Of a stretch of 64,000 nt of DNA, positions 16,114 to 33,352 are shown one piece after another. The position numbers were made by a program, and so were the translations under genes. A model generated the notes under the pieces. It did not search any database and was not told the origin of the DNA. It saw only the letters and a list, made by a program, of their open reading frames with translations. Positions within the stretch are counted from its first letter, which is position 1, and each line of letters opens with the position of its first letter. This DNA comes from Halocalculus aciditolerans (GTDB lineage: Archaea; Halobacteriota; Halobacteria; Halobacteriales; Halobacteriaceae): contig NZ_BMPG01000003.1 of assembly GCF_014647475.1 (NCBI RefSeq), positions 248,001 through 312,000 on the forward strand. Reading direction: 5' to 3'.

Positions 16114-16129
16114 ACATGGTATCTGTGTA
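16113..16129 (-). promoter_or_regulatory. Operator-like site TACATGG-TAT-CTGTGTA at the aminotransferase start
   Basis: One arm is an exact copy of the CTGTGTA arm found at 896-912 and 2454-2470, and the other arm matches at 5 of 7 positions. It overlaps the ATG at 16113, as the site at 2454-2470 overlaps its start codon. Confidence 0.4.
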
Positions 16130-16428
16130 GGATGGTAATTAATTTTGTTGTCGAGTCGCCCGCCGCCGACGCCCAGACGTCGACGCAGCACACGCTGCCC
16201 GACACTCTCCACCGTCGACGCCGGGACGCCGCGACCTCGCCACCCCCCGAGACCGACTTTTGATCGCAGACAGAACAATCGGAACACATGTGAAATAGAG
16301 ATCATTAGATATTGGCACTGTCTAGTTAAGTCAGTTTTGAGCTGTTCGTTGTTTCGGTGTCTATGATAACCGAAGAATCACCGGAGAGACGTTAGAAACG
16401 GTGAATATTGGTTGTTTGGTGCGTGATC

Positions 16429-17128: not shown

Positions 17129-17149
17129 TGAGCGGATGGCAACGTTGAC

Positions 17150-17780: not shown

Positions 17781-17992
17781 ACCGTGCTCCATTTCAAAGA
17801 ACAGAATGAGATCAATAGGTGGTCGCTGACAGGAACTGTTCCAGTAACTTTCAACCAATTATATCATTCACCCAGCGGCCAATATTACAGTGTTATTGGT
17901 GTAAAGAGCTGCTGGTTCGGGACTTGGTACTACTCCAGTGCCAGAATTAAGGCCTGGAGAAGAATCATGTCATTCGACATCACGGAATATGA

Positions 17993-18766
17993 CTATGCGT
18001 AGGCCGTGTTGAGCTCAAGTTCGTTTGCGGTTCCGAGGAGTAGCGAGGGGAGGCCGTCCTCGAAGAACTCCCCGGTAAGACGATGACTCGGCCCGGAAAC
18101 GCTCAGTGCACCGAGGACGTCCCCGTCGGGCCCGGTAACCGCGACTCCAACTGCGTGAAGACCTTGTAAGTTCTCCTGGCGGTTGAACGCGTAGCCACGC
18201 TCTCTGATCTGCTCCAGTTCCGAATGGAGATCATCTGCATCGGTTATCGTCTCGTCAGTAATGTCATCGAACGACGTCCGTTCGACGACGCGGGACACTT
18301 CATCCGGAGACATTGCAGCGAGTATTGCTTTCCCAGCTGAGGTCGCGTGTAGCGGGATTCTGTTCCCGATTCCCGGGTCGGTTCGGACTGCGTGCTCTCC
18401 GTGTGCACGGTGAATGTAGACCGCTTCTGCGTGTTCTTCGACGATAAATTGAGCTCGCTCGTCTGTTTCGGCGGCAAGCTCGTCGACTTTCTCTTTGGCT
18501 AGCTGGTAGGCTCGATGGCGGTTGCGTGCTTGTTCTCCGAGTTCGAGAAACCGTAGTCCCACGTAGTAACCGCCTTCCTGAACGATGTATCCGTGGGTTT
18601 CGAGTGTCTGTAGGTGCCGGTGAATGGTGCTTTTTGCGTACGGGAGGTCGGTGGCGGCCGTTGAGAGGGTTGCGCCGTCTTCTTCGCGGAGGTATTCGAC
18701 GATGTCGAACATCGTGTCAATGGCTTTCACTGTGTCCGTGTTGTCTGTTCTCATGGGTTCCGTCAT
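17993..18766 (-). CDS. IclR-family transcriptional regulator
   Basis: This 257-residue protein has an N-terminal winged helix (TAATDLPYAKSTIHRHLQTL, about residues 40-60) and an IclR sensor domain with the conserved HATSAGKAILAAM and, near the end, ALSVSGPSHRL. It is the first gene of the less GC-rich island and is transcribed away from the acyl-CoA gene cluster that starts at 19385, so it probably controls that cluster in response to the imported acid or its CoA ester. Start ATG 18766 and a second ATG four codons later are both possible. No clear palindrome was found in the 618-base gap ahead of it. Confidence 0.9.
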   Translation of the reverse strand: MTEPMRTDNTDTVKAIDTMFDIVEYLREEDGATLSTAATDLPYAKSTIHRHLQTLETHGYIVQEGGYYVGLRFLELGEQARNRHRAYQLAKEKVDELAAETDERAQFIVEEHAEAVYIHRAHGEHAVRTDPGIGNRIPLHATSAGKAILAAMSPDEVSRVVERTSFDDITDETITDADDLHSELEQIRERGYAFNRQENLQGLHAVGVAVTGPDGDVLGALSVSGPSHRLTGEFFEDGLPSLLLGTANELELNTAYA

Positions 18767-19384
18767 GGTTGATGGTCATCGTTGGTCGTATTGAATGTTC
18801 TGCATCGTCGAATCGCATCGTGAGACGAACCCCCGCACAGACTGCGCTTACACTCGTAGAAGCCCACGATATTGGTCCGACCGACACCGAGGAAACCGTG
18901 GCTCAGGCATCACGGGGCGCAGCAGCTGCGCTCCACCACGAGACCCCATCGACGGGACTGGAAGCGGAACTCTCTACGGAATATCCGGTCACGAGCGAGG
19001 GGTCGTGACCGCGTTGATCTGGCTGCATTCGCCGTTGCAGCGGTCAAAGCTCCGCTCGTGGAATCCCTCCGAGAGACCGTCTCGTTCTCGGTCGATAGAG
19101 GTCTGGAGTACGACTCTCACGAAGCCATAGCTCGCATAAAACGGGTGCAAGGACGGTTGAACGGCGGCAGGAGAACTCTCCTGGAACGCACGAGAATCCG
19201 GTAACGGAGGCGGAACGAAGATCGAAGCGGAGAGAGCGTGTGAGCCGTGTGCTGTCTGATTCGACTGGCGACGAATATACCCGGGGTTCGATTCTCTGGA
19301 CGCGGTGAGTCGTGTCCCGAAAGCGGTTCGAGGTGCGACTGACCCATAGTTTTAACAGGCTGGTTCACCCAGCAGCGGGTGCCA
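18767..19384. other. Long divergent gap with possible gene debris
   Basis: The gap between the IclR gene and the acyl-CoA dehydrogenase gene holds two short protein-like plus-strand stretches in different frames, about 18834-19008 (ending TEYPVTSEGS) and about 19010-19204 (VDLAAFAVAAVKAPLVESL). They might be parts of one frameshifted gene, but I do not recognise the family. The promoter of the acyl-CoA operon probably lies at TTTTAACAGG near 19350, about 30 bases before the start. Confidence 0.4.
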
Positions 19385-20587
19385 ATGGTAGACAGAGACA
19401 CCGTCGAGTTGACGGACCAGCAGCGGCTGGTACGAGATTCGATACGCGACATCTGCTCAGATTTCGAAGCAGACTACTGGCGTAAGAGAGACAGAAACGG
19501 CGAATACCCGCACGAGTTCGTCGACGAACTCGCAGCACACGGCTGGTTCGGTGCCTTGCTTCCCGAAGAATACGGGGGCGCAGGTATGGACACTGAGGAG
19601 GTTGCAGTGATGATGGAAGAAATCGCAGCCTCCGGTGGAGGGTTCAGCGCTGCACAGGCAGTTCACGGGGCGATCTATAACTCAGTTCCGCTCGTCAAAT
19701 ATGGGAGCGAGGAGATGAAAGAAGCGCTCCTCCCGAAAGTCGCTCGTGGTGAAGCCTCGATCCAAGCCTTCGGCCTGACGGAGCCTAACGCTGGATCCGA
19801 CTCCACATCGATAGAGACGCGCGCAGTCCGTGACGACGACCACTACGTCATCAACGGACAGAAGATCTGGATCTCTCGCGTGGACGCAAGCGACTATCTC
19901 GTCCTAATGGCACGCACGACCCCGAGAGAAGACGTCGAGAAACGAACCCGCGGGCTGTCGATGTTCCTCATCGACCTCCGGGATGCCTACGATCAGGGTG
20001 GCTTGGAGATCGAGCAGATCGACAAGACGGCGAGTAATATCGTGCACTCGTACGAGCTCTTCTTCGAAGACCTCCGCGTTCCTGCGGAGAACGTTATCGG
20101 CGAAGAAGGGCAGGGGTTCTACCAGATGCTCGACGGGCTCAATGAAGAGCGCCTAGCGATCGCTGCGGAATGCATCGGTCTTGCAGAAGCCGCGATTGAA
20201 GCCGGCGTCGAGTATGCAAACGAGCGGACCGTGTTCGACGAGCAGATCGGGTCGAACCAGGCAATTCAGCATCCACTGGCAGAAGCGCACGCGCAGACAC
20301 AAGCGGCGAAGGGCATGGTTTACAGCGCGGCGAGTGCCGCTAACGACTCGGCGAACGCAAAAGACGTAGGAGCACGTGCGAACATGTCGAAGTTCCTCGC
20401 AGCTAAAGCCGCCTTCGAAGCCGCCGACGCAGCCGTGCAAACCCACGGTGGGTTCGGGATCGCACGTGAGTACGACGTCGAACGGTACTTCCGCGAAGCA
20501 CGTCTCACGCGTCTCGTCCCCATCACGCAGCAGCTCGCACTGAACTATATCGGCGAGAACGTGCTGGGTCTCCCGAGGTCGTATTGA
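19385..20587 (+). CDS. Acyl-CoA dehydrogenase
   Basis: The 400-residue flavoprotein should introduce a 2,3 double bond into an acyl-CoA. The N-terminal helical domain, the FAD/substrate segment AFGLTEPNAGSDSTS, INGQKIWISR and the C-terminal helical domain are complete. The usual catalytic Glu segment (YEGT-like) is replaced by LTRLVPITQQLALNYIGENV, so the base must lie elsewhere or the substrate class differs. ATG 19385 is used; a GTG at 19379 would add two residues. It is the first gene of a tightly spaced operon and its stop overlaps the next start by one base (TGATG). Confidence 0.9.
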   Translation: MVDRDTVELTDQQRLVRDSIRDICSDFEADYWRKRDRNGEYPHEFVDELAAHGWFGALLPEEYGGAGMDTEEVAVMMEEIAASGGGFSAAQAVHGAIYNSVPLVKYGSEEMKEALLPKVARGEASIQAFGLTEPNAGSDSTSIETRAVRDDDHYVINGQKIWISRVDASDYLVLMARTTPREDVEKRTRGLSMFLIDLRDAYDQGGLEIEQIDKTASNIVHSYELFFEDLRVPAENVIGEEGQGFYQMLDGLNEERLAIAAECIGLAEAAIEAGVEYANERTVFDEQIGSNQAIQHPLAEAHAQTQAAKGMVYSAASAANDSANAKDVGARANMSKFLAAKAAFEAADAAVQTHGGFGIAREYDVERYFREARLTRLVPITQQLALNYIGENVLGLPRSY

Positions 20588-21129
20588 TGCCGGACGACGT
20601 CAAAGCGGGATGGCATGGCCGATACTACGAGGACTTCGCTGTCGGTGATGTCTACAAACACCCGTTCGGACGGACGGTGACTGAGACTGATGACGTCTGG
20701 TTCACGAACGTCACGATGAACGCAAACCCGATGCATTTCAACGAGGCGTACGCAGCCGAGACGGAGTTCGGCGAGCGCCTCGTCAATGGGACGTTTGTTA
20801 TCGCACTCGCCGTCGGAATGAGCGTCGTCGACGTCTCGATGAACGCAACGGCGAACCTCGGCTACGACGACATCCGGCACCACGGACCCGTCTTCCACGG
20901 AGATACGATCTTCTCAGAGTCAGAAGTCCTCGAGAAGCGGGAATCAGACAGCCGGGAGCACGTTGGCCTCGTCACCACAGAGCTGCGCGCGTACAACCAA
21001 GACGGTGATCTCGTACTGTCCCTCGAGCGCACGCCGATGGTCCTGAAGAAGAGTCACGCCGACCCGACCGCGGAACAACCGCCCGGTTGGCCAGCCGGTA
21101 TCGGGGCGCAGCCGGAGAATGAACAATGA
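20587..21129 (+). CDS. MaoC-family enoyl-CoA hydratase-like protein
   Basis: The 180-residue protein has a single hot-dog MaoC domain. The segment MNANPMHFNEAYAAETEFGERLVNGTF holds the N-x-x-H hydratase motif (its Asp replaced by Met), with the catalytic His in NPMHFNEAYA. It would add water to an unsaturated acyl-CoA, following the dehydrogenase. The overall look is close to mesaconyl-CoA hydratase-type proteins. It overlaps the dehydrogenase by one base and the next gene by four, so translation is coupled. The C-terminal 25 residues are Pro- and Gly-rich and probably disordered. Confidence 0.85.
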   Translation: MPDDVKAGWHGRYYEDFAVGDVYKHPFGRTVTETDDVWFTNVTMNANPMHFNEAYAAETEFGERLVNGTFVIALAVGMSVVDVSMNATANLGYDDIRHHGPVFHGDTIFSESEVLEKRESDSREHVGLVTTELRAYNQDGDLVLSLERTPMVLKKSHADPTAEQPPGWPAGIGAQPENEQ

Positions 21130-22580
21130 CTGCGGAGCGGATCCAAGACGGAATTCCGATTCACGCTGCAACCGACGTCGTTCGTGAGATCAGCGCGGAC
21201 GACACGCTGCTTATCAGTGGCTTTGGGAGCGTCGGGTATCCCAAAGCAGTCCCTCTCGCACTTGCCGACGACGAGGCGGACTACTCGCTGACGGTCGTCA
21301 GCGGAGGGAGCGTCGGAGCGGAAATAGACGTCAGCCTGGTCGAAGCTGATGCCGTTGACCGCCGATTCCCGTACCAAGCGCGACCGCCGATCCGAGAATC
21401 GATCAACGATGGGGCGGTCGCGTTCCACGACCGGAACATTAGCACACTTGGCGACGAGGTCCGGTACGGTGGTCTCCCAGACGGCGGTGTAGCAGTCGTC
21501 GAAGCACTGGCTGCGGGTTCAGATTGGTTCATCCCCACGACCAGCATCGGACAAACACCGGCATTCGTCAGATCTGCCGATAAGCTGATCATCGAGGTTA
21601 ATCAGTCCGTACCGGAGGAAGTCCGCCGGTTCCACGACATCTATCGGTTAGGGACGCCGCCGAACCGTGGTCCAGTGCCACTCACAGACCCCGGTGGTCG
21701 GATCGGGAAGAACTCGGTTTCCTTCGACCCGGAGAAGCTGATCGGGGTCGTTCAGACTGACCGACGTGACCAACCCTATGCGTTCCGAGACCCCACGGAG
21801 GCCGACCGATCGATCGCCGCACATCTTCGATCATTTCTGGAGCGTGAAGTCGAGCGATCACCGCTTTTCGAGGAGTCCGTCCGAATTCAATTCGGCGTGG
21901 GAAGCCTCGGAAATGCCCTTATGGGTGCTCTCGGCGACGCCGATTTCGATGACCGAGAGCTCATCTACTTCGGCGAAGTCATTCAGGATGGCCTCCTCGA
22001 CCTCCTGGACGACGGAAAGCTCGCGAGCGCAAGCGCGACCTCGCTCGCATTATCGAGCGAGGGTCACGAACGGCTGTTCGAAGACGTCGACCGGTATGCC
22101 GAGGACATCGTTCTTCGACCTGCTGATCTTTCGAATAGTCCGGCGCTCATCGATCGGTTCGGGGTCATTGCTGTTAACAGCGCCTTGGAGGTCGACCTCT
22201 TCGGCCACGTCAACTCGACCCATCTGAACGGTACGCGTGTGATGAATGGAGTCGGTGGCAGTGGTGACTTCAACCGCCACTCGCCACTGGCCGTCCTTGC
22301 CTTGCCTTCCGTTGCCGCAGACGGCGACATATCGCGGATCACTCCGATGGTCCCCCATGTCGATCACACAGAACACGATATCGATGTGGTGGTGACTGAG
22401 CAGGGCGTCGCCGATCTCCGCGGCAATGAGCCGAGAGAGACGGCGAGAGACCTCATCGAAAGTTGCGCTCACCCGGACTACCGAGAACCCCTCGAAGACT
22501 ACCTCGCCAGAGGCATCGAATCGAACGGACACATCCCCCACGACCTGGACACAGCCCTTAGCTGGCACGCAAACCGATAA
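21126..22580 (+). CDS. Acetyl-CoA hydrolase/CoA-transferase family protein
   Basis: The 484-residue protein is a single-chain family I-type CoA-transferase of the acetyl-CoA hydrolase/transferase (Cat1-like) group with two related halves. The catalytic Glu is most likely in IYFGEVIQDG, and the C-terminal half carries VNGVGGSGDF-like (VMNGVGGSGDFNRHS) and VVVTEQGVADLRG, both typical of the family. It moves CoA between an acyl-CoA and a free acid, which could activate the imported substrate or release a product. It overlaps its upstream neighbour by four bases and its downstream neighbour by one. Acyl-CoA hydrolysis is the alternative activity. Confidence 0.88.
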   Translation: MTAERIQDGIPIHAATDVVREISADDTLLISGFGSVGYPKAVPLALADDEADYSLTVVSGGSVGAEIDVSLVEADAVDRRFPYQARPPIRESINDGAVAFHDRNISTLGDEVRYGGLPDGGVAVVEALAAGSDWFIPTTSIGQTPAFVRSADKLIIEVNQSVPEEVRRFHDIYRLGTPPNRGPVPLTDPGGRIGKNSVSFDPEKLIGVVQTDRRDQPYAFRDPTEADRSIAAHLRSFLEREVERSPLFEESVRIQFGVGSLGNALMGALGDADFDDRELIYFGEVIQDGLLDLLDDGKLASASATSLALSSEGHERLFEDVDRYAEDIVLRPADLSNSPALIDRFGVIAVNSALEVDLFGHVNSTHLNGTRVMNGVGGSGDFNRHSPLAVLALPSVAADGDISRITPMVPHVDHTEHDIDVVVTEQGVADLRGNEPRETARDLIESCAHPDYREPLEDYLARGIESNGHIPHDLDTALSWHANR

Positions 22581-23479
22581 TGACCGACTTACTCACCTCG
22601 AAGACTTGCATCGTTACCGGCGCTGGCCACGGTATCGGCCGCGCTACAGCAATCGAACTCGGTTCGCTCGGCGCGAACGTCGTCGTCAATGACCTCGGCT
22701 CTGACGTGCACGGCGAAGGCACGAGCCAAGAGCCGGCGGAAGAAACAGTCGCTGCAGTCGAAGATGCCGGTGGAACAGCGATCGCGCACTTCGGAGACGT
22801 AACCGACCTGGACTACACAGAGCGACTCATCGCAGACACTGTCGATGAGTTCGGCCGAGTCGACGGCGTCGCGAACTTCGCGGGAATACTCCGTGACGCG
22901 TTGGCTGAGAATATGACCGGTGACGAGTGGGACGCAGTGATCAATGTGCACCTCCGTGGGCACTTCTCGCTACTACGGAACGCAGCTGCTCATTGGGCCG
23001 ATTCCGCTCCGGACGGTGGCTTTGAGACGTCACGGTCGTTCGTCGCGCTAACGAGCCGGTCCGCGCTTGGGAACGTCGGCCAGGTGAATTACTCGACCGC
23101 AAAGGCGGGCATCCTCGGGATGATTAGAACGACGTCGACGGAGCTCGATCGATATAACGTTCGGGTGAATGCGGTTATGCCGACCGCGTACACCCGAATG
23201 ATCGAGGATATCCCAGAGGAGAAACAGCCCTTCACTCGGGAAGACATGCCGCCTGAACGCGTTGCGTCGATGATCGGGTATCTGTTGAGTGACGCGGCCG
23301 ATGGAATCACCGGCAGCACGCTTCGAGTTGCTGGTGAGCAGGTCGGTGTCGTGTCTCACCCGGAACTCGTTCGGTCTGGATACCGGGATGGCGGCTGGTC
23401 CGCTGAAGACCTGGCCGACGGGTTCACCGACGACGTCGCAGAAGGCGTCGACCTCGATAATTCAGGGGGTGCGTTCTGA
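22580..23479 (+). CDS. Short-chain dehydrogenase (3-hydroxyacyl-CoA dehydrogenase type)
   Basis: This 299-residue oxidoreductase has the NAD-binding TGAGHGIGRA motif, the NFAGIL structural motif, and the catalytic Ser in SFVALTSRSALG with Tyr171 and Lys175 in YSTAK. A Gly- and Glu-rich loop after VVNDLGSDVHGEG resembles the dehydrogenase domain of peroxisomal multifunctional enzyme type 2. It should oxidise a 3-hydroxyacyl-CoA made by the MaoC-type hydratase. The C-terminal 60 residues extend beyond a minimal SDR. It is placed between the CoA-transferase and the thiolase-like gene, with one-base overlaps on both sides, which supports a beta-oxidation order. Confidence 0.88.
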   Translation: MTDLLTSKTCIVTGAGHGIGRATAIELGSLGANVVVNDLGSDVHGEGTSQEPAEETVAAVEDAGGTAIAHFGDVTDLDYTERLIADTVDEFGRVDGVANFAGILRDALAENMTGDEWDAVINVHLRGHFSLLRNAAAHWADSAPDGGFETSRSFVALTSRSALGNVGQVNYSTAKAGILGMIRTTSTELDRYNVRVNAVMPTAYTRMIEDIPEEKQPFTREDMPPERVASMIGYLLSDAADGITGSTLRVAGEQVGVVSHPELVRSGYRDGGWSAEDLADGFTDDVAEGVDLDNSGGAF

Positions 23480-24648
23480 TGAGTGAACCGGTCTATATCG
23501 CGGGTGCGTTTGAACACCCCACGAGGGAAGCTCCCGAGAAGTCGACGATGCAGATCCATGCAGAGGTGGCTGCCGGTGCCCTCGACGATGCGGGCGTTTC
23601 GAAAGACGCAGTCGACGCGTACTTCACCGCTGGTGTTCCCGAGATGGAGCACGCGCTCACTCCACTCATGGCCACAGATTATCTCGGCTTAGATGTTGAC
23701 TACGCCGATACAACGGACTACGGCGGCTCTTCGTACGTGTCTCACGTCGGCCATGCCGCAAGCGCGATCCGGGACGGCAAGTGCGATGTCGCCCTGATCA
23801 CGCTTGCCGGTCGCCCTCGGTCACGCGGGCAGGCGACTGGATCTGGCACGCGCGAGCTTCGAACTGTGCAGGACAGTTTCGAGCGGATCTATGGCGCGAC
23901 CAACGTGACGATGTACGGGATGGCTGCACGTCGGCACATGCATGAACACGGGACGACGTCGGAGCAGCTGGCGGAGATTCGCGCTGCGGCATCACATCAC
24001 GCCCAATACAACGAGAATGCGATGTACCAAGACCCGGTGTCGGTAGAAGAGGTTGTGGACTCACCGGTGGTCGCGGACCCGCTCCACCTCTTGGATTGCT
24101 GCGTCATCTCTGACGGCGGTGGTGCACTTCTCGTAGTCAGTGAGGACGTCCGCGCCGAGCTGAGTCGTGACTGTGTGGAAGTGCTCGGGCACGGAGAATC
24201 GCCGAAACATCACGATGCGGGCCGAATAGACATCACGGCCACGGGAGCCGTTGAGTCGGGGAAGCAGGCTTTTGCGGAAGCCGGTCTCGGTCCGGAGCAC
24301 GTCGAGTATGCGTCGATCTATGACTCATTCACGATCACCGTTCTTGAAGCGATTGAGGATCTCGGGTTCTGTGCGAAAGGAGAGGGCGGAAAGTTCGTAG
24401 AGGGCGGAACACTCCGCGCGGACGGTGATCTCCCCTTTAACACGGATGGTGGTGGCCTGTGTTCAAACCATCCCGGGAACCGCGGCGGGATGACGAAGGT
24501 AATCGAAGCGGTACGTCAACTCCGGGGGGAGGCGAATCCGGAAGTCCAAACTGACGCTGACGTCGCGCTCGCTCACGGAACGGGAGGGAGCATCGCGACT
24601 CGACATGGCGCTGCAACGCTTCTCCTGGGAACGGAGGGGTCAGCATGA
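23479..24648 (+). CDS. Thiolase-superfamily protein lacking the usual catalytic cysteines
   Basis: This 389-residue protein has the two-domain thiolase fold in its SCP-x-like form. The conserved His segment is present as NTDGGGLCSNHPGNRGG, and the C-terminal loop reads AHGTGGSIATRHGAATL. The position of the N-terminal nucleophilic Cys reads GGSSYVSHVGHAA, with Tyr instead of Cys, and the C-terminal Cys is absent too. Such proteins, together with a DUF35 partner as here, can act as acyl-CoA aldolases rather than thiolases (steroid side-chain Ltp2-type systems are the known example). Either role would end the chain-shortening cycle. It overlaps the DUF35 gene by four bases. Confidence 0.82.
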   Translation: MSEPVYIAGAFEHPTREAPEKSTMQIHAEVAAGALDDAGVSKDAVDAYFTAGVPEMEHALTPLMATDYLGLDVDYADTTDYGGSSYVSHVGHAASAIRDGKCDVALITLAGRPRSRGQATGSGTRELRTVQDSFERIYGATNVTMYGMAARRHMHEHGTTSEQLAEIRAAASHHAQYNENAMYQDPVSVEEVVDSPVVADPLHLLDCCVISDGGGALLVVSEDVRAELSRDCVEVLGHGESPKHHDAGRIDITATGAVESGKQAFAEAGLGPEHVEYASIYDSFTITVLEAIEDLGFCAKGEGGKFVEGGTLRADGDLPFNTDGGGLCSNHPGNRGGMTKVIEAVRQLRGEANPEVQTDADVALAHGTGGSIATRHGAATLLLGTEGSA

Positions 24649-25061
24649 CGGACGAAGAGACGTGGGGGCCTCGCCCACTGCCAGATGTGTCACCAGAGAC
24701 GGAACGATACTGGGCGGCTGCCAGTGAGGGGACGTTACTCCTGTCGTACTGCTCTGCGTGCGACCTCTACATCTATCACCCACGTGCACGGTGTCCAGAC
24801 TGTTTCGAGGAGACGGAATGGGCGGAGTCGAGCGGCGATGGAACGGTCTACTCGTTCTCCGTTGCAGAGCGTATGGAGGGGTGGCCTGAGGAGGACCTGC
24901 CGCTCGTGGTCGCGTACGTGGAGTTAGACGAGGGGCCGCGAGTGATGACGAATATTGTCGGCTGCGATCCTGACGAGATTGCCATCGATGATTCCGTCTC
25001 CGCTGTATTTCGCCAAACCGAGGAGGACGACGTCGCCGTGCCGGTTTTCCAGCCGAGCTAA
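24645..25061 (+). CDS. DUF35 zinc-ribbon/OB-fold protein
   Basis: The 138-residue protein has an N-terminal zinc ribbon with the spacing CxxC-x10-CxxC (YCSAC ... RCPDCF, residues about 37-55) and an OB-fold after it (SSGDGTVYSFSVAERM onward). DUF35 proteins form complexes with thiolase-like enzymes and can bind acyl-CoA, channel substrate or stabilise the partner. The 4-base overlap with the thiolase-like gene strongly suggests a stoichiometric complex. Zinc binding is expected from the motif, not proven. The protein ends 48 bases before the CoA ligase gene. Confidence 0.88.
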   Translation: MTDEETWGPRPLPDVSPETERYWAAASEGTLLLSYCSACDLYIYHPRARCPDCFEETEWAESSGDGTVYSFSVAERMEGWPEEDLPLVVAYVELDEGPRVMTNIVGCDPDEIAIDDSVSAVFRQTEEDDVAVPVFQPS

Positions 25062-25108
25062 GCCGGAACCCGAACTCTTTTGCCGCATGACAGTGTGTCT
25101 CACGATGC

Positions 25109-26743
25109 ATGCTCCGCTGGCCAGACGCAACTATCTACGACGGGATTGCAGACGTCGCAAGCACCAAACCAGACGCCGATGCCCTCCGGTTTAAGGGGGA
25201 ATCAACGTCATACTCCGAACTCGTCGAGGAAAGCAAAGCACTCGCCCATGGCCTCGCTGACTTAGGCGTCGGCGGCGACGATAAGATCGCAGTCTGGTTG
25301 AGCAACCGTCCGGAATGGATCAAAGCACAGCTGGCCGCCTCCTACCTCGGCGCAGCAGTCGTCGCAGTGAACACGCGATACCGAACCCACGAGCTGGAGT
25401 ATATGATGTCGGACTCCTCGTGCACTGTGTTGCTCACAGAGGAGTCCTTCCTCGGAAATCAATATCTCGAGATGGTCGCGGAAGTCGTACCAGAGATCGA
25501 ATCTCAGTCACCCTCGGACTTTGCCCCGAAGTCGATGCCGGCTCTGGAACACGTGATCGCTCTCGAAAAACACGAGGACTATCCCGCCGTTCGTGGGTAT
25601 GATGCCGTCGAAGCTTCGGGGAGGGGAAGAGGCGATGTCGACCCTGCCACCGACGCTGACGCGACTGCCTGCGTCTTCTATACAAGCGGGACGACAAGTG
25701 ACCCGAAAGGGGTTCTCCAGTCGAATCAATCGATGCTGAATCACTCCTACCAGGTGGGAGTGCATTTCTCCGTCGGTGAGGGAGACGTCGCACTCGGTAT
25801 CCTTCCGTTCTGTGGCGTCTGGGGGTATAATATGTTCTTGAGCGCGCTCACGCATGGGATTCCTCAAGTGGTGCAGACTCATTTCGATGCTGAGCGGACG
25901 ATAGCGAACGTCGAGGGTCACGATGTGACCTACATGTCTGGCTTAGCAACGATGTATCAGCGTCTTCTCGAAGCAGACGGATTCAGTGAAGAGCGGGTTG
26001 AATCGCTCGAGAAAGGGTCGATCGGCTTCGTCAGTATCGGTTATGATGAGGACCTCTTCGAAGAAATCGAGTCAAAAACGGGCGTCCCCGTCTGTCAACC
26101 CTACGGGCTCTCAGAAGCGAATAGCCAGGTTTTCGTCGGTGATCCTGAGGACCCTCCTTCAGTCAGGAAGCGTGTCGGTGGCCCGATGATCTTTCCTGAA
26201 GAGGAGGAAGCGCGTATTGTGGACCCAGAAACCGGTGAAGAACTGGAAGAAGGGAACGCCGGAGAGCTCTGTCTCCGTGGATGCAACGTCATGAACGGAT
26301 ATCTGGGGAAGCCCGAGAAAACGGAAGAGGTCATCGACGAAGAAGGGTGGTTCCATACGGGCGACCTTGCACTCCGTGACCCGGAGACGGGTTCTCTGTT
26401 CTACCAGTCTCGGATGGACGATGCACTCCGTATCCGGGGGTTCCTAGTCGCACCGCGGGACATTGAAACCGTCCTTAACGACCACCCAGGAGTTGAGCTG
26501 TCACAGGTAGTGGGGGTTTCGCATCCACGGCACGGGCAGGTCGCCATAGCGTTCGTTAAGAGGTCGAATGGGTCACTGACCGCGTCTGCTCTCTACGAGT
26601 ACCTTGACGACCACGTTGCGGATTACAAGGAACCGGAGGATATCGAGTTTATCGACGAATTCCCGCGTTCTTCGGGTCCACATGGGGAGAAGATCCAGAA
26701 AACCGATCTCCGGGACCGCGTTTCGGGTCGGTATTCTGATTGA
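25109..26743 (+). CDS. AMP-forming acyl-CoA synthetase
   Basis: The 544-residue ligase activates a carboxylic acid to its CoA thioester through an acyl-adenylate. The AMP-binding P-loop-like motif is YTSGTTSDPKG (about residue 190), followed by YGLSEANSQVF, the hinge region GWFHTGDLALRDPETG and a C-terminal domain with the core Arg in SRMDDALRIRG. The usual late catalytic Lys lies near the segment RSSGPHGEKIQK. The substrate is probably the acid brought in by the Liv-type importer just downstream. ATG 25109 is preferred over ATG 25105, which is in another frame. It ends 69 bases before the binding-protein gene. Confidence 0.9.
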   Translation: MLRWPDATIYDGIADVASTKPDADALRFKGESTSYSELVEESKALAHGLADLGVGGDDKIAVWLSNRPEWIKAQLAASYLGAAVVAVNTRYRTHELEYMMSDSSCTVLLTEESFLGNQYLEMVAEVVPEIESQSPSDFAPKSMPALEHVIALEKHEDYPAVRGYDAVEASGRGRGDVDPATDADATACVFYTSGTTSDPKGVLQSNQSMLNHSYQVGVHFSVGEGDVALGILPFCGVWGYNMFLSALTHGIPQVVQTHFDAERTIANVEGHDVTYMSGLATMYQRLLEADGFSEERVESLEKGSIGFVSIGYDEDLFEEIESKTGVPVCQPYGLSEANSQVFVGDPEDPPSVRKRVGGPMIFPEEEEARIVDPETGEELEEGNAGELCLRGCNVMNGYLGKPEKTEEVIDEEGWFHTGDLALRDPETGSLFYQSRMDDALRIRGFLVAPRDIETVLNDHPGVELSQVVGVSHPRHGQVAIAFVKRSNGSLTASALYEYLDDHVADYKEPEDIEFIDEFPRSSGPHGEKIQKTDLRDRVSGRYSD

Positions 26744-26812
26744 CGTGTGAGAACACACCCCACCGATAGATTTAACAAATAATGATGTGTGTTTCAGTCC
26801 GGAGCCTCGAAT

Positions 26813-28078
26813 ATGGACAGCACACGACGCAGCCTCCTGAAACGGAGTGGTATTGCAGCGGCAGCGATAAGTACAACTGGCCTGGCAGGGTGCAGTAGCT
26901 TCGGTGGCGGCGGTGGGGGGACAATCAAACTCGGAGCGATCAATCCACTCTCGGGATCAGCAGCATTCTACGGAGAACTCGCAACAAAAGCACAAACTGC
27001 CTGGAAAGAGCAAGTCAACGAGAACGGAGGTATCGAAGTCGACGGTTCAACACGACAAGTCGAACTCGTCGAATACGACGACGAATCGAAGAACAGTGCT
27101 GCGCGATCAGCCGCGAAACGCCTCGCGACAGTCGACGATGTGTCGATGATCCTCTCGTCCTGGCGTAGTACGGGAGCAATCGCTGTCGCTCCAATTGCAA
27201 ATCAGAACGAGGTCCCGACGTTCACTCACGGGTTCACTCCACAAGTCAACGACCCGGGAACCTACATGATGCGATTGACCGTGAGCACGGTTATGGATGC
27301 ATATCCTGCGCTCCAGCAGGTAGAGAAGAGCGACGAAATCCAGAACATCGGCGTTATCGCAGAAACGGGAGACTGGGGTGATGACACGCTCGCGTTAATG
27401 GACTGGTGGTTCAACGAATCAGGTCACGAGGGGGACTACAAGAACCTCGGTCGATTCTCCTTCAGCCAACAAGATTTCTCGTCATACCTCACCAAGGCGA
27501 AACAGGCCTACAACAATGGGGAAATCGATGCTCTCTACGTCCAGACGTGGGCATCTGCGATGCAGCGGTTCCTCGCACAGCAGCACCGTGAAGGCCTCCA
27601 CGAGATGATGCCGATCCTGACCGGACTCGGTGGTGCAGACTTCAACAGCGTCGACGACGTCGGAGAAGCAATGGAGAACGTGTACGCACTCGGGGTGTAT
27701 ACCCGACTCTCGTACGCGGACAACGACGCAATCGCAGAAACGATCTCTGACGAAGCGCTCACACAGTTCGACCAATACAAGCAACTCGACGCCCCAATGC
27801 ATCCCGTCGCGTTCAACGTATATGCGGACGCTCAAATCTCGCAACGGGGTATTGAGGAGGCCGGCAGTACCGAGGGAGCAGAAATCCGGAACGCGCTCGT
27901 CGGCACCGAATTCACGACCCTTATCGGTGATGCGACAATCAACGATCGGGGACAGCCCGCGATTCCGGGTGCACTAATCAAGTTCGGCACAGATGGTGAT
28001 ACACCGGTCGTCGATGAAGTCCCGTGGAGCGGACAGCTGCCGCCGATAACCAGTATCCCGCCCGAAACCGATCTATGA
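26813..28078 (+). CDS. Liv-type ABC substrate-binding lipoprotein (Tat)
   Basis: The 421-residue protein starts with a twin-arginine signal (RRSLLKRSGIAAAAIS) and a lipobox LAGCSS followed by a Gly run. The mature part is a family 6 periplasmic binding fold (GAINPLSGSAAFYGELA opening), as in branched-chain amino acid, amide and aromatic-acid importers. ATG 26813 (MDSTRR) is used; upstream in-frame sequence to 26789 would precede the signal and is unlikely. A TATA-like TTTAACAAA lies at 26771-26779. Gene order with permeases and ATPases and the acyl-CoA context suggest that the ligand is a carboxylic acid and not leucine. Confidence 0.88.
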   Translation: MDSTRRSLLKRSGIAAAAISTTGLAGCSSFGGGGGGTIKLGAINPLSGSAAFYGELATKAQTAWKEQVNENGGIEVDGSTRQVELVEYDDESKNSAARSAAKRLATVDDVSMILSSWRSTGAIAVAPIANQNEVPTFTHGFTPQVNDPGTYMMRLTVSTVMDAYPALQQVEKSDEIQNIGVIAETGDWGDDTLALMDWWFNESGHEGDYKNLGRFSFSQQDFSSYLTKAKQAYNNGEIDALYVQTWASAMQRFLAQQHREGLHEMMPILTGLGGADFNSVDDVGEAMENVYALGVYTRLSYADNDAIAETISDEALTQFDQYKQLDAPMHPVAFNVYADAQISQRGIEEAGSTEGAEIRNALVGTEFTTLIGDATINDRGQPAIPGALIKFGTDGDTPVVDEVPWSGQLPPITSIPPETDL

Positions 28079-28115
28079 TCACGCGACCACCTTCACACAC
28101 TCTACACAGAGACCA

Positions 28116-29045
28116 ATGGTACTGTTAGAGACACTCGTCAACGGCCTGATTCAAGGCAGTATCTACGCGTTGTTCGCCGCCAGTTTCACCATCATCTTCG
28201 GTGTGATGGACATCCCAAACATGGCTCACGCTGCCCTGTTCGCCGGTGGAGCATACGTGTTCTACCAGGCAACGATTCTGACCGGCCTCCCCTGGCCGGT
28301 CGGAATCGTGGTCGCGGTCATCGCGATCGGGCTACTCGGCGCGATCCTCGAACGCGGGATATTCGCTCGGTTATACGACCGTACAGAATCGGAATACGTG
28401 TTCGCGATTATCCTTGCCACGCTCGGCCTTGCACGTATCTTCGAACGTGCATTCGCGCAAGTATGGGGCCACGAGCCCAAAGAAGTCCCACTCGCCGGCC
28501 TTCAATCGGGAAGCCTACACGCCGCAGGCGTGACCGTGACGTCGCTTGAGCTACTGGTGTTCATCTTCTCGATCGCCAGCTTCGCGTTCCTCTACTGGGT
28601 CATCAACCACACCGAGACCGGCCTCGGGCTTCAGGCAATCGTTCAAGACCGCGATCTCGCCCGCCTAAAAGGCGTGAACGTCGGCCGTACCTTCTTAATC
28701 GCGTTCGTGCTCGGAAGTTCCATGGCGGGAGTTGCAGGCGTCCTCAACGCCGCGATGTTCTCCCTCACGCCCGACATGGGCTCATCACTGCTCATCAAGG
28801 CGTTCATCGTGGTCATCCTCGGAGGAATCGGACGCGTCGTCGGTGCAGCAGTCGCCGGCTACGCACTCGGCATCTACGAGGCCTTCGCGATCCTCTACCT
28901 CTCATCGTACTACATCTACGCGACAGAGTTCGCAGTCCTCATCCTCTTCTTCCTGCTCAAGGCAGTCGTCTTGAGTGAAGGTGAGGACGACCTCGGAGCT
29001 GCTATCGCTGACCGCGTTCGCGGCCTTACGGAGGTTACCCGATGA
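28116..29045 (+). CDS. livH: Liv-type ABC permease LivH
   Basis: The 309-residue membrane protein has about eight hydrophobic helices and begins VNGLIQGSIYALFAASFTII, the characteristic LivH opening. The cytoplasmic loop that contacts the ATPase is seen near RDRDLARLKGVNVGRTFLIAF (written with the true residues DRDLARLKGVNVGRTFL). It follows the binding-protein gene by 37 bases and overlaps livM by four. It forms the membrane channel together with LivM. Codon use is less GC-rich than in the genes left and right of the island. Confidence 0.9.
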   Translation: MVLLETLVNGLIQGSIYALFAASFTIIFGVMDIPNMAHAALFAGGAYVFYQATILTGLPWPVGIVVAVIAIGLLGAILERGIFARLYDRTESEYVFAIILATLGLARIFERAFAQVWGHEPKEVPLAGLQSGSLHAAGVTVTSLELLVFIFSIASFAFLYWVINHTETGLGLQAIVQDRDLARLKGVNVGRTFLIAFVLGSSMAGVAGVLNAAMFSLTPDMGSSLLIKAFIVVILGGIGRVVGAAVAGYALGIYEAFAILYLSSYYIYATEFAVLILFFLLKAVVLSEGEDDLGAAIADRVRGLTEVTR

Positions 29046-30070
29046 GCGCCGATACAGAATCAGGATTCGCGAACCGTAATCTAGCCGTCGACATGCCAGG
29101 TGTGGAGTGGCGTGCAGTCGCGAAGTCTGTGGGCATTACGCTCCTCCTCGGACTGCTCGCAGCCCCACTCGTCGCGGGATCGAGCTATATCGGGTACGTG
29201 GCGCTAACCGTGGTGATATTCGCCGTGATGGCCTCCGGGTATAACCTCATGCTCGGTTGGCCGAACTTGCTCGTGTTCTGTCCTGCAGCACTGGCGATCA
29301 TTGGCGGAGTGACTTCCGCGCTCCTCGTCAACGTCTTCGGGGTTCCATACCTCGTCGCAATGGTCTCCGGCGGAGTCGTTGCGGCGGTTATCGGAGGGTT
29401 CATCGCCTTTTCCGCGATCGCGATTGGCTCATCATTCGAGATAATCATCGCAACGCTCGCCTTCGAGGAGATCGTCTACTACGTCTTCACAAACTGGCAT
29501 GCCGTCGGGCCGACTGGGATTAGTAACGTCCCTGCGCCAACAGCGGGGCCACTCACATTCCAAACTCAACTGGAACAGTACCTGTTCCTCTTAGTGATGT
29601 TAACGATCTCGATCGGTATCGTAGCGGTATTCGACCGGTCGCTGACGGGAACGCTAACTGTTGCAACCAGTGAGAACGAAGACCTACTACGGTCGATCGG
29701 ATACAACCCGAAAAAGTACAAATTCATCGCCGTCGTCGTCGGTGCCCTTCTCTTGGGTATCGGTGGATCGCTGTACGCGCACGTGAACGGGCTCATCACG
29801 CCTGGTGGGTTCACGCTCGACCAGACCGTCTTCCTACTCGTTATCGCCGTCGTTGGTGGCATTCGAACGGTTCACGGCCCAATCGTCGGTGCAATCGTCC
29901 TCGTCGGCCTCCCAGAGGTCGTCCGAATGTTCGGCTTATCGAACATGAAGCCCTACATTATCGGTGGAATGCTCGTCGTCGTCGTGCTCTTCTTCCCACG
30001 CGGTATCCTGGGAGGTCTCTACGACGCAATCGATAACAGAGGTGATCTCTCGTGGCAATTCTGGAAGTAA
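29042..30070 (+). CDS. livM: Liv-type ABC permease LivM
   Basis: The 342-residue membrane protein has a polar N-terminus of about 35 residues and then eight to ten membrane segments. NLMLGWPNLLVFCPAALAIIG resembles the conserved LivM helix pair, and the ATPase-contact loop is ATSENEDLLRSIGYNPKKYK. It overlaps livG by 19 bases, an unusually long overlap that points to coupled translation. It partners LivH. Confidence 0.9.
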   Translation: MSADTESGFANRNLAVDMPGVEWRAVAKSVGITLLLGLLAAPLVAGSSYIGYVALTVVIFAVMASGYNLMLGWPNLLVFCPAALAIIGGVTSALLVNVFGVPYLVAMVSGGVVAAVIGGFIAFSAIAIGSSFEIIIATLAFEEIVYYVFTNWHAVGPTGISNVPAPTAGPLTFQTQLEQYLFLLVMLTISIGIVAVFDRSLTGTLTVATSENEDLLRSIGYNPKKYKFIAVVVGALLLGIGGSLYAHVNGLITPGGFTLDQTVFLLVIAVVGGIRTVHGPIVGAIVLVGLPEVVRMFGLSNMKPYIIGGMLVVVVLFFPRGILGGLYDAIDNRGDLSWQFWK

Positions 30071-30735
30071 CCGAACTCAACCGTAGTTTCGGTGGCATCG
30101 TCGCGCTTGACGGCGTTACGTTCACGCTCGAGCGTGGGACTACGAACGCGATAATCGGTCCGAACGGTGCTGGGAAGACAACACTGTTCAACTGCATCAC
30201 CGGGTATCATATCCCGGATGGTGGAACGGTCGAGTTTGACGGAGAAGACATCACGACCGTCCCGGACTATAAGACGGCGCGGCAGGGGGTCCGTCGTACG
30301 TTCCAGGAGGTTGATGTCTTCGACGAGCTTACTGTTGCAGAGAACATCAGTCTTGCATCGTTCGAGTCGGACCCAGAAGAGCTAATGGAGCTACTGGACC
30401 TCATCGAAATCCACGATAAAGAGGGGAGTGAACTCACCCTCTTCGAACGAAAGCGCGTGTCGCTCGCACTCGCAAGTGAGGGAGACCTCCTCTTACTTGA
30501 CGAGGTGTTCTCCGGACTAAACCCGACGGAGAAGCCCGAGATGATCGACTATATCGATGCGCTCGCAGAGCGAAAGACCATCATGCTCATCGAACACGAC
30601 ATCGAGACAGCGTTCAACCTCGCGGATACAGTTACCGTCCTCGCGCAAGGTCAGGTGATGCATACCGGAACGCCCGAAGAGATGCTCGAGGACGAGCAAG
30701 TCCGCGAAGAATACATCGGAGAGATGGCGATATGA
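30052..30735 (+). CDS. livG: Liv-type ABC ATPase LivG with an atypical signature
   Basis: This 227-residue ATPase has a normal Walker A (GPNGAGKTTLFNCITG), a Q-loop in GVRRTFQEVDVF, Walker B LLLLDEVFSGLNP and the switch His in IEHDIETAFN. The signature region is not LSGGQ-like; it reads LTLFERKRVSLALA, close to the position of the LPYGQQRRLEIARA motif usual in LivG. The protein is also about 25 residues shorter than typical LivG. It can still be active in a dimer with LivF, whose signature is canonical. Overlaps: 19 bases with livM and four with livF. Confidence 0.88.
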   Translation: MAILEVTELNRSFGGIVALDGVTFTLERGTTNAIIGPNGAGKTTLFNCITGYHIPDGGTVEFDGEDITTVPDYKTARQGVRRTFQEVDVFDELTVAENISLASFESDPEELMELLDLIEIHDKEGSELTLFERKRVSLALASEGDLLLLDEVFSGLNPTEKPEMIDYIDALAERKTIMLIEHDIETAFNLADTVTVLAQGQVMHTGTPEEMLEDEQVREEYIGEMAI

Positions 30736-31442
30736 CGGACTTACTCACCGTCGACGACGTTCATGTCTCGTACGGCGATATGGAAGTCATTCGCGACGCC
30801 AACCTCAGCGTCCCGGAGGGAGAAGTCGTCTCCATCGTCGGTGCGAACGGAGCCGGAAAAACGACGCTCCTCGATACGGTTTCCGGCGTCAAAGACATCG
30901 ATAGTGGAGACATCGAGTTCGAAGGCGAATCTGTCGTGGGTTACGAGCCGTACGAGCGGATTGACAAAGGGCTCGCGTACGTCCCAGAACGACACCGTGT
31001 ATTTCCGGAGATGACCGTTGCGGAGAACCTCCGGACAGCGATGATACCCGCGTCGGACGTCGACGAGAGCGCGCAGTTAGACCGCGTCTTTGACCTCTTC
31101 CCGATACTCAGCGAGCGTCAATCGCAAGTCGCGAGCACGATGAGCGGGGGTCAACAACAGATGCTCGCGATCGCCCAGGGGCTGGTCATCGACCCGGACC
31201 TCATAATGTTCGACGAGCCAACGCTCGGACTGGCACCGAAGATCGTCGAGGACATTCGAGACACCATCAGCGAGATCAGTGAATCCGGCGTCACTGTGCT
31301 CGTCGCCGACGAGCAAATCGAATTTGCAAAACACGTCTCTGACCGGATGTACCTCATGCGGAAGAACACGCTCAACTACCTCGGTGAGCGCGGAGAGTTC
31401 GAGGATGCGTATCAAGAGACCGTGGATAACGTCTTTGCATGA
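30732..31442 (+). CDS. livF: Liv-type ABC ATPase LivF
   Basis: The 236-residue ATPase has a canonical Walker A (GANGAGKTTLLDTVSG), signature MSGGQQQMLAIAQ, Walker B LIMFDEPTLGLAP and the typical LivF C-terminus. The usual LivF switch His appears as Asp-Glu in VLVADEQIEFAK, as in other LivF proteins where ADQN/EQN replaces a strict His. It closes the importer gene set and overlaps both neighbours by four bases, so importer and catabolic enzymes form one transcript. Confidence 0.9.
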   Translation: MTDLLTVDDVHVSYGDMEVIRDANLSVPEGEVVSIVGANGAGKTTLLDTVSGVKDIDSGDIEFEGESVVGYEPYERIDKGLAYVPERHRVFPEMTVAENLRTAMIPASDVDESAQLDRVFDLFPILSERQSQVASTMSGGQQQMLAIAQGLVIDPDLIMFDEPTLGLAPKIVEDIRDTISEISESGVTVLVADEQIEFAKHVSDRMYLMRKNTLNYLGERGEFEDAYQETVDNVFA

Positions 31443-32191
31443 CCTCCGAACACTATACGGTAACGCGGGCGAACGACCGGCTATCGATCACGCTGGATAG
31501 ACCATCGGTTTCCAACGCGTTTCCGGAAGCATCTGTCGTCTCACTCACCGAAACGATACGCGACATCGAACAGGGGGACGCGACTACCGTCGTAATCGAT
31601 GCGCGCGGGGATCAGTTCTCCGTCGGGGCCGACATCCACGACCTGAATCCCGACACACCAGACGACGCTCGGTCCCTCTCAGACACGTACGCTGACCTCG
31701 TTGCGTCGATCCGTGAGTGCCCGTTACCGGTCATCGTCTCGGTTCAGGGTCGTGCGTTCGGGTTCGGATTCCTCCTCGCACTCGGCGGGGACTTCGTGGT
31801 CGCCGACTCACGAGCGACGTTCGCCGTGCCCGAAGCGCGACTTGGAATCCCGATCTCCGGATACGCGATCGAGCTACTCCCCCAGCTGATCGGAGAACGA
31901 CGAGCGCGCGATTGGCTCTTCACCGGGCGAGATATTCCCGCAACAGAAGCACATAACGCAGGTTTCGTTACTCGGCTCGCGGACAAGGCGGACCTCACCG
32001 AGGTAACAGCGAAACTCGTGACGGCAGTAGAACGATCAAGCAGCGATACGCTCGCGATTCTCAAAGACCGTCTCAGTGACCCCGCGATTGGAGCGGAAAC
32101 ACAGTCACTCCGCACAGCCGCCGCTGACGCCATGGAGTATGCCTTCACCGACGGCGACGCTCGTGAAAGGCTCGAAGAACTCAGACAATGA
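31439..32191 (+). CDS. Enoyl-CoA hydratase/isomerase family protein
   Basis: The 250-residue crotonase-fold protein has the oxyanion-hole segments GDQFSVGADIHDL and GRAFGFGFLLALGGDFVVA. The first catalytic Glu is in TFAVPEARLGI; the second Glu position is occupied by a Gly in the following GYAIELLPQLIG region, so it might be an isomerase, thioesterase or lyase rather than a plain hydratase. It overlaps livF and the next gene by four bases. With a MaoC-type hydratase already in the operon, a second crotonase hints at a substrate with an extra double bond, ring or branch. Confidence 0.86.
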   Translation: MTSEHYTVTRANDRLSITLDRPSVSNAFPEASVVSLTETIRDIEQGDATTVVIDARGDQFSVGADIHDLNPDTPDDARSLSDTYADLVASIRECPLPVIVSVQGRAFGFGFLLALGGDFVVADSRATFAVPEARLGIPISGYAIELLPQLIGERRARDWLFTGRDIPATEAHNAGFVTRLADKADLTEVTAKLVTAVERSSSDTLAILKDRLSDPAIGAETQSLRTAAADAMEYAFTDGDARERLEELRQ

Positions 32192-32568
32192 CCTCAATAC
32201 TCGACACCCAAGACTGGCCGCAAGAACTCGCTAACGCAGCATCATCAGACGAATTCCGACGGTCCGCGACTGAGTTCGACGGCTCTCTTGCCCTCGAAGT
32301 CGGCAGCGACACCGCTTGGTTCAAGATTTACCGAGGTCACGTCATCGACACCGAGCCGTACGTCCCGTCGTTTGGCGCGACGTTCCGCGTGATTGGGGAC
32401 GACAAAGCCTGGAGGCGCGTCGCTAGCGGCGATCAATCGCTATCGGGAGCGATCCACACAGGCTCCCTCAAAACTGCCGGGAACAAGCTCGAAGCAAACC
32501 GAATGCGGGAAATGCTCGAACTGCTCATCCGGACGCTACAAGACCTCGACGAGGCCATTGATGACTGA
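32188..32568 (+). CDS. SCP2-like (sterol carrier fold) protein
   Basis: The small 126-residue protein resembles the SCP2 lipid-binding domain: an N-terminal helix, a beta-sheet core (SLALEVGSDTAWFKIY, FRVIGDDKAWRRV) and a C-terminal segment GNKLEANRMREMLELLIRTL in which the conserved Gly-Asn turn precedes the helix that closes the cavity. It probably carries a hydrophobic acid or acyl-CoA for the neighbouring enzymes. It overlaps both neighbours, four bases upstream and eight downstream. No signal peptide or membrane segment is present. The match is structural in feel, so the exact family is moderately sure. Confidence 0.7.
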   Translation: MTSILDTQDWPQELANAASSDEFRRSATEFDGSLALEVGSDTAWFKIYRGHVIDTEPYVPSFGATFRVIGDDKAWRRVASGDQSLSGAIHTGSLKTAGNKLEANRMREMLELLIRTLQDLDEAIDD

Positions 32569-33352
32569 GCTAACTGGCCATTACACGACCGTCAGCGGAA
32601 CCCGGACGTACTATGAATCAGTCGGTGATGCAAGTGACCCCACCCTCATTGCGATCCATACCGCGGGAGCAGATGGGAGACAATGGCGGCACGTCGCTCC
32701 CCTCCTGAAAGAGGAGGGATACCGGGTCATCGTTCCGGACCTTCCGGGTCATGGAAAATCGTACCCTGTAGATTGGGAGCCTCATGATTCGATCCATCGA
32801 CACGCTGAATTCGTATTCGATTTTATGTCGAAGCTCGCCCTCGATAACCCTGCAGTCACTGGGTGTTCTATCGGAGGCGATATCGTTCTGGACCTTGCCG
32901 TAAACCACCCCGAAAGCTTCCGTGCCGCCCTCGCGTTCGAGGGAGCAGGGCGAACACGTGGCGCGCAGCTCGGTCGCCTCTCACACCCCCACGCACTACC
33001 GGGCTGGCAAAGCGTTCTCGAGTACTCCGTTACTGATTCGACTGCGGACTCCGTTCCCGAGGAGGCACGCCGCGAGCTCGTGTGGCAACACCGCAGCGCA
33101 CACGAAGTCGGCACAAATGACCTGCAGGGTTGGGCAGATCACGACGTAACCGACCGACTGAGCGAGGCGACTCTGCCAGTGTTGCTCGTGAGGGGAAGCG
33201 AGGACTTCTATATCCAAGACGACGTCTTCCAGGAGACGATAGACGGCCTTCCGGATTGTACGCCTGTGACGATGGACGAGACGGGACATTACCCGATGAT
33301 GGAACACCCGTCTCGGACTACGACGCTCATCCGCGATTTCCTCACTGATTAA
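32561..33352 (+). CDS. Alpha/beta hydrolase
   Basis: The 263-residue protein has the catalytic triad of the fold: nucleophile Ser in TGCSIGGDIVLDL, Asp in LLVRGSEDFYI and His in DETGHYPMMEHP. The lid region is short. It may hydrolyse an ester, a lactone or a C-C bond in the pathway substrate, for example an enol-lactone in ring degradation. ATG 32561 is chosen because the sequence MTELTGHYTTVSG fits hydrolase N-termini and overlaps the previous gene by eight bases; the frame is open to 32393 only as a shadow of the SCP2-like gene. It ends the operon. Confidence 0.87.
   Translation: MTELTGHYTTVSGTRTYYESVGDASDPTLIAIHTAGADGRQWRHVAPLLKEEGYRVIVPDLPGHGKSYPVDWEPHDSIHRHAEFVFDFMSKLALDNPAVTGCSIGGDIVLDLAVNHPESFRAALAFEGAGRTRGAQLGRLSHPHALPGWQSVLEYSVTDSTADSVPEEARRELVWQHRSAHEVGTNDLQGWADHDVTDRLSEATLPVLLVRGSEDFYIQDDVFQETIDGLPDCTPVTMDETGHYPMMEHPSRTTTLIRDFLTD

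Follow-up and report, generated by a model that had tools for sequence, protein, structure and literature searches.

Introduction

Thiolase-fold aldolases with a proven reaction come, in the literature examined, from steroid side-chain degradation only. Ltp2-ChsH2(DUF35) of Thermomonospora curvata is the 17-HOPC-CoA aldolase (PDB 6ok1), in which the tyrosine of a YDHF motif serves as the base and Tyr344 as the acid (as cited in PMC12329534); Sal-Shy(DUF35) of Comamonas testosteroni is a bile-acid aldolase (9myr), in which Tyr302 and Cys304 of a YDCY motif are essential, the C304S variant is inactive, and the authors propose that a glycine at the former cysteine site touches the hydroxyl and argue that it makes thiolysis impossible (PMC12329534). 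DUF35 domains are also known to scaffold other complexes (PMC12329534). A different kind of gene cluster, described in Pseudomonas and Cupriavidus, degrades methylsuccinate and itaconate with an acyl-CoA dehydrogenase (ACAD), an MmgE/PrpD isomerase, a CoA-transferase (CoAT), a hydratase and a citramalyl-CoA lyase (PMC12290011). In this article I will discuss a gene pair of the haloarchaeon Halocalculus aciditolerans that touches on both, found in a window of 64,000 nucleotides (contig NZ_BMPG01000003.1, positions 248,001 to 312,000), which encodes a thiolase-like protein, labeled THL, and a zinc-ribbon DUF35 protein, and which I favor as a putative retro-aldol acyl-CoA lyase. Neither the fold, nor its pairing with DUF35, nor the idea of an aldolase is new in itself; the novelty lies in an active-site variant in a subfamily to which the literature examined assigns no reaction.

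Active-site residues and the DUF35 partner

THL is a member of the NCBIfam subfamily NF006010/PRK08142, matching it over residues 4-385 with 562 bits, 100 bits above the curated cut-off of 462, and also matches Pfam Thiolase_C_1 (160 bits) and Thiolase_N (36 bits). The curated family name, simply "thiolase domain-containing protein", carries no reaction, and a literature search covering mostly openly accessible papers found none assigned to the subfamily. An identical set of motifs is present in all 81 members examined, namely THL and its homologues at 80 public loci, the best 80 of the 590 relatives confirmed in a genome scan; these were aligned together with the solved structures. Where thiolases carry their nucleophilic cysteine in a CxS or CAS motif, THL has Gly83, a glycine in 81/81, and the alignment of this site is free of gaps against Cys-bearing paralogues as well as a structurally solved thiolase. 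A sequence-only reading of the window had correctly noticed that the N-terminal nucleophile is gone, and had named a cysteine aligned at the active site as the observation that would speak against it, yet it misplaced the substitution: the tyrosine that it put in the cysteine's place is Tyr81, two residues upstream of Gly83 at a variable site (T in 48, V in 11, S in 6 and Y in 4 of the 81). The functionally telling tyrosine, which that reading did not name, is Tyr281 of a YDSF motif (Y281, D282, S283, F284) that replaces the HDxF of thiolases in all 81 members. As the same reading recognized, the histidine segment is kept, with the GHP histidine of thiolases present as His331-Pro332 in 81/81, and the C-terminal cysteine is missing, HGTGG standing there for CxG or HNxGG.

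The motifs YDSF, NTDGGG and HP are strictly kept across domains, in bacteria and haloarchaea, and a haloarchaeal relative lying outside the 81 (L114) has a glutamine at the His331 position, like Sal. In a superfamily set of 78 sequences, a glycine at the cysteine site is accompanied by a tyrosine in YDxx in 65/65 cases, and Cys-bearing proteins have a histidine at that tyrosine position in 10/11; in an independent-contrast test of cysteine loss against the change from HD to YD, each switched just once or twice on the tree.

The partner protein matches zf-ChsH2 and OB_ChsH2_C in Pfam, has the zinc-ribbon pattern Cys-x2-Cys-x10-Cys-x2-Cys, and finds its best PDB match in ChsH2-DUF35, the partner of Ltp2, so that the earlier description of a zinc-ribbon DUF35 gene tied to THL by a four-base overlap (ATGA, with both reading frames intact on the plus strand) is borne out. 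In 71/72 loci with enough flank, the THL homologue has a DUF35 gene no more than 4 kb away (neighbor counts leave out L007; L007 and L134, and likewise L006 and G258, are the same loci found twice), and because it recurs in this way the pairing is not due to chance. The zinc-ribbon DUF35 partner of the known aldolases is therefore present here as a gene pairing, from which I infer that THL and DUF35 would form one enzyme complex.

Phylogeny, solved relatives and predicted structure

By sequence, the closest solved relatives of THL are 4u4e and 9myr (Sal-Shy DUF35), followed by the thiolase 7yvy and 6ok1 (Ltp2-ChsH2 DUF35), with about 28-32% identity to Ltp2 and Sal. The sequence-only reading had called for a phylogeny against Ltp2-type aldolases, and in a maximum-likelihood tree of 62 proteins, midpoint-rooted, with several long branches and an order within the aldolase side that is partly open, a branch with 100/100 support parts the THL family, 4u4e, Sal and Ltp2 from the Cys thiolases. 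The THL family itself (34 tree rows, 100/100 support) lies outside both the Ltp2 and the Sal clades, and the tree thus favors a Cys-less ancestor common to this side but does not bring THL particularly near to either Sal or Ltp2. The structure of THL predicted by AlphaFold2 has a mean pLDDT of 76 and a pTM of 0.84, with values below 50 for loop 327-335; its top three matches by Foldseek are 4u4e, Sal and Ltp2, and by VIA-align Sal comes first (Z 42.4, root-mean-square deviation 2.6 over 351 residues), with 4u4e and Ltp2 at 40.9.

The details of these relatives are instructive. The putative thiolase 4u4e of Sphaerobacter thermophilus is about 40% identical to THL and shares its glycine site, YDSF, HP and HGTGG, but its entry carries no known reaction and, unlike THL, it falls outside the PRK08142 clade; the main text of the Sal paper mentions neither YDSF nor 4U4E (PMC12329534). 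With Sal, THL has in common the glycine at the cysteine site, the catalytic tyrosine of YDxx and a DUF35 partner, whereas Sal has YDCY with Cys304 and Gln352 where THL has YDSF with Ser283 and His331, and the Sal DUF35 domain has a C3H1 zinc site and is fused to the Shy hydratase while the partner of THL is a free-standing C4 protein. With Ltp2, it shares the glycine, the equivalent of Tyr294 and a C4 DUF35 partner, but Ltp2 has YDHF and Tyr344 in place of YDSF and His331; THL consequently has neither the essential cysteine of Sal proper nor the YDHF motif and Tyr344 general acid of Ltp2 proper. The thiolases 7yvy, archaeal acetoacetyl-CoA thiolase (6esq/6et9) and BbsAB (7pxp) have the same fold as THL, and 6et9 and the benzoylsuccinyl-CoA thiolase BbsAB also have a DUF35 partner, yet 7yvy has Cys and HDAF where THL has Gly and YDSF, and BbsB likewise has HDAF in place of YDSF (its cysteine site lies outside the printed alignment). 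Membership in BbsAB was considered and rejected, the scores being far under the BbsA/BbsB equivalog cut-offs (27 vs 250 and 151 vs 750 bits).

Other variants of the superfamily came to light along the way. Two thiolase-fold paralogues in the genome of the window (L001 and L005) have serine at the nucleophilic cysteine site (TSSSG and TSASG) while retaining HDxF and GHP, are joined by a well-supported branch, and may be another non-thiolase group. A second haloarchaeal group, found in about 20 other genomes besides that of its representative L115, is 42-45% identical to THL; L115 has Gly at the cysteine site, YDSF and CHP-GHF and is near the 4u4e type. Four bacterial relatives (L148, L150, L152 and L160) have YDAF instead of YDSF, which points to further active-site variants among the proteins that the tree groups with the aldolases.

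Proposed reaction

Taken together, the loss of both thiolase cysteines, the invariant YDSF tyrosine, the His-Pro pair, the pairing with DUF35 and a Cys-less ancestor shared with Ltp2 and Sal lead me to propose, with moderate confidence, that THL-DUF35 is an acyl-CoA lyase of the retro-aldol kind whose active site is a Tyr/His variant. An acyl-CoA would be dehydrogenated by the ACAD of the operon and hydrated by its MaoC-type hydratase to a 3-hydroxyacyl-CoA, and the DUF35 protein would shape the substrate cleft and complete the complex, as in ChsH2-DUF35 and Shy-DUF35. Tyr281 would be the base, the role proven for the same tyrosine in Ltp2 and Sal, and take the proton of the beta-hydroxyl, which would lie against the backbone of Gly83, the glycine giving it room and contact; the C2-C3 bond would then break, yielding a ketone or aldehyde and the enolate of acetyl- or propionyl-CoA, and His331, at the position of Tyr344 in Ltp2 and Gln352 in Sal, would protonate this enolate. 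Since Ser283 stands where Sal has its essential Cys304, the result would be a third arrangement of catalytic residues, in which the assignment of His331 as the likely acid is the weakest step. As for the substrate, my guess is a branched or dicarboxylic 3-hydroxyacyl-CoA with a non-oxidizable carbinol, such as a citramalyl-CoA-like compound.

The operon around THL (Table 1) resembles the itaconate/methylsuccinate cluster (PMC12290011) in having an ACAD, a hydratase, a CoA-transferase and MmgE/PrpD (decayed in the window), and differs from it by the additional thiolase-DUF35 pair, ligase and ABC transporter; its hydratase stays below the Ich cut-off (171 vs 340 bits). No citramalyl-CoA lyase gene is present among the annotated operon genes, CitE-like genes being found elsewhere in the genome, and this missing lyase together with the presence of THL-DUF35 suggests that the pair may carry out a C-C cleavage after the hydratase. 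The set of MmgE/PrpD, ACAD, MaoC and CoAT recurs in several haloarchaea, frequently with an IclR gene and in a slightly varying order; L126, L006 and L132 have it together with THL, whereas THL is missing in L127, L128 and L130. The longest open reading frames of L146 and L147, used as CitE queries, appear to be wrong-frame artefacts, and their matches of 42-60 bits were disregarded, one of them lying on the opposite strand over the beginning of MaoC in the window; the neighbors of MaoC relatives on haloarchaeal plasmids (L187, L188) were of no help. As an observation in its own right, the haloarchaeal set (L126-L132), which is similar to the bacterial methylsuccinate/itaconate cluster but mostly without a linked lyase, could be a new dicarboxylate pathway.

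Weighing the alternatives

Several observations weigh against retro-aldol cleavage. THL is without the second catalytic residue of both known aldolases (Tyr344 of Ltp2, Cys304 of Sal), its Ser283 is the very residue that kills Sal in the C304S variant, Sal has glutamine at the His331 position, and the model loop carrying His331 is of low confidence. Thiolases are nearly as close to the THL model as the aldolases are (VIA-align Z 41.0), so the reaction cannot be read from the fold and the residues carry most weight. An MFE-2-like short-chain dehydrogenase/reductase (SDR) is encoded directly upstream of THL in the window, the order SDR-THL-DUF35 returns in Rhodococcus DK17, where an SDR of 35% identity likewise overlaps THL by one base, and a 3HCDH-type dehydrogenase is near THL in 9/20 haloarchaeal loci, these neighbors being counted around THL homologues only; a neighboring dehydrogenase is the order expected ahead of a thiolase or other 3-oxoacyl-CoA enzyme. 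In two Natrinema loci (L189, L010), moreover, a CitE-like lyase shares the cluster with THL-DUF35, so that replacement of the lyase is not general. The undescribed acyl-CoA aldolase of the sequence-only reading hence stands in part, with the 100/100 branch, the catalytic tyrosine and the structure ranking in its favor and, on the other side, the position outside the Ltp2/Sal clades, the missing second catalytic residue and the dehydrogenase neighbors.

The alternative that survives best, although I consider it rather unlikely, takes its cue from these neighbors: THL would cleave the 3-oxoacyl-CoA produced by the adjacent dehydrogenase in a Cys-independent retro-Claisen reaction, with Tyr281 and His331 activating water to give a free acid and an acyl-CoA. 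In addition to the upstream SDR, its relative in Rhodococcus DK17 and the 3HCDH genes upstream in several haloarchaea, it can point to peroxisomal beta-oxidation of branched chains, which combines a MaoC hydratase, an MFE-2-type SDR and an SCP2-type thiolase in this way. However, the dehydrogenase is missing from the nearest operons, L126 (G383) and L006 (G258), which have the order ACAD-MaoC-CoAT-THL-DUF35-ligase, and nothing in the whole of the near-complete genome G383 is closely related to the SDR (best 41%); with the thresholds applied, which divergent SDRs would escape, most bacterial loci have no such dehydrogenase within 4 kb, and the nearest characterized relatives are aldolases. A count of Pfam families among the bacterial THL neighbors gave no dominant pathway. 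On plasmid pDK3 of Rhodococcus sp. DK17 (L184), a cytochrome P450, a ferredoxin and a reductase lie beside SDR-THL-DUF35-MaoC-CoA-transferase, and the substrate of this locus might be guessed from the known growth substrates of DK17.

It is very improbable that THL is an ordinary thiolase with another nucleophile, or with an active cysteine misplaced by the alignment, even though the fold, the GHP-like histidine, the beta-oxidation neighbors and four conserved cysteines (C207, C208, C298, C328) could be read in this way, since the cysteine site aligns with glycine without a gap, C207, C208 and C298 occur in the aldolase Ltp2 as well (LDCC, GFC), and C328 is a serine in L106. About as improbable is a thiolase relative that is idle in catalysis, or regulatory, and uses DUF35 to scaffold other enzymes, which would suit the lost cysteine and the scaffolding role of DUF35 domains elsewhere, but the strict conservation of YDSF, NTDGGG and HP across domains argues for active chemistry. 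That a haloarchaeon should have an Ltp2 or Sal for the cleavage of steroid side chains is unlikely and the least probable of these readings, for despite the identity to Ltp2 and Sal, the same type of partner and a weak SCP2-like gene in the operon, THL lies outside both clades, KshA (a single marker) was not found in a search of the genome, and the CoA-transferase and MaoC look like enzymes for short-chain and dicarboxylate compounds.

The operon and its surroundings

The MmgE/PrpD remnant listed in Table 1 sits between the IclR gene and the ACAD gene and was recognized with the intact L126 copy, which occupies the same place, as the tblastn query; the L006 copy is likewise split over two frames. 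G+C content is 0.54-0.60 at window positions 16001-32000 against 0.62-0.69 on either side, and this coincides with the extent of the operon, which suggests that the stretch may be an acquired island.

Table 1. Genes and remnants of the THL operon, in window coordinates.
Feature	Position	Strand	Remarks
IclR-family regulator	17993..18766	-	divergent from operon
MmgE/PrpD, decayed C-terminal remnant	18850..19272	+	stops and frame changes; tblastn 86 bits, 3e-20
Acyl-CoA dehydrogenase (ACAD)	19379..20587	+	
MaoC-type (R)-specific enoyl-CoA hydratase	20584..21129	+	related to mesaconyl-/itaconyl-CoA hydratases, below their equivalog cut-offs
CoA-transferase, succinyl-CoA:acetate (ScpC) type	21126..22580	+	526 bits vs cut-off 500
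SDR dehydrogenase	22580..23479	+	one-base overlap with THL gene; best solved relative MFE-2 (3R)-hydroxyacyl-CoA dehydrogenase
THL, thiolase-fold protein without catalytic cysteines, NF006010/PRK08142 subfamily	23479..24648	+	389 aa, intact open reading frame; Gly83, Tyr281-Asp-Ser283-Phe, His331-Pro332, HGTGG near C-terminus
DUF35 partner, C4 Zn ribbon and OB fold	24645..25061	+	138 aa, intact open reading frame; ATGA overlap with THL gene
Acyl-CoA ligase (AMP-binding)	25109..26743	+	
Branched-chain-amino-acid-type (Liv-type) ABC transporter, five genes	26789..31442	+	binding protein, two permeases, two ATPases
Enoyl-CoA hydratase/isomerase (crotonase family)	31439..32191	+	
Small SCP2-like protein	32188..32568	+	Pfam SCP2 14 bits, under cut-off 21
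Alpha/beta hydrolase	32561..33352	+	start codon inferred

Distribution

The sequence-only reading had taken the pair for a specifically archaeal version, a view that the distribution does not sustain, as the best 80 of the 590 confirmed relatives come mostly from Proteobacteria and Actinobacteria, with haloarchaea a minority and patchy in their occurrence. Among 392 genomes of the window's order, 29 (its own included) carry THL at 62% identity or above and 46 have a match at E 1e-60, while no other genome of the window's family within these 392 carries it at that identity. The haloarchaeal proteins form one group beside the bacterial ones (92/84 support), and this grouping, the patchy distribution and the lower G+C make it plausible that haloarchaea acquired the THL operon from bacteria and that it then spread among them.

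Discussion

It is possible, if doubtful, that PRK08142 proteins with DUF35 make up a widespread class of acyl-CoA lyases, the third with the thiolase fold, built on a Tyr/His catalytic pair and, in haloarchaea, serving non-steroid catabolism, where the class would replace the CitE-type citramalyl-CoA lyase of itaconate/methylsuccinate-type clusters. Should the retro-aldol reading prove true, it would follow that the name "thiolase" is wrong for a large group of proteins in bacteria and archaea that bear it today, that C-C cleavage of 3-hydroxyacyl-CoA without a dehydrogenase is far more widespread than thought, and that a new active-site variant, a tyrosine base with a histidine and a serine in place of the essential cysteine or histidine, would become available for biocatalysis.

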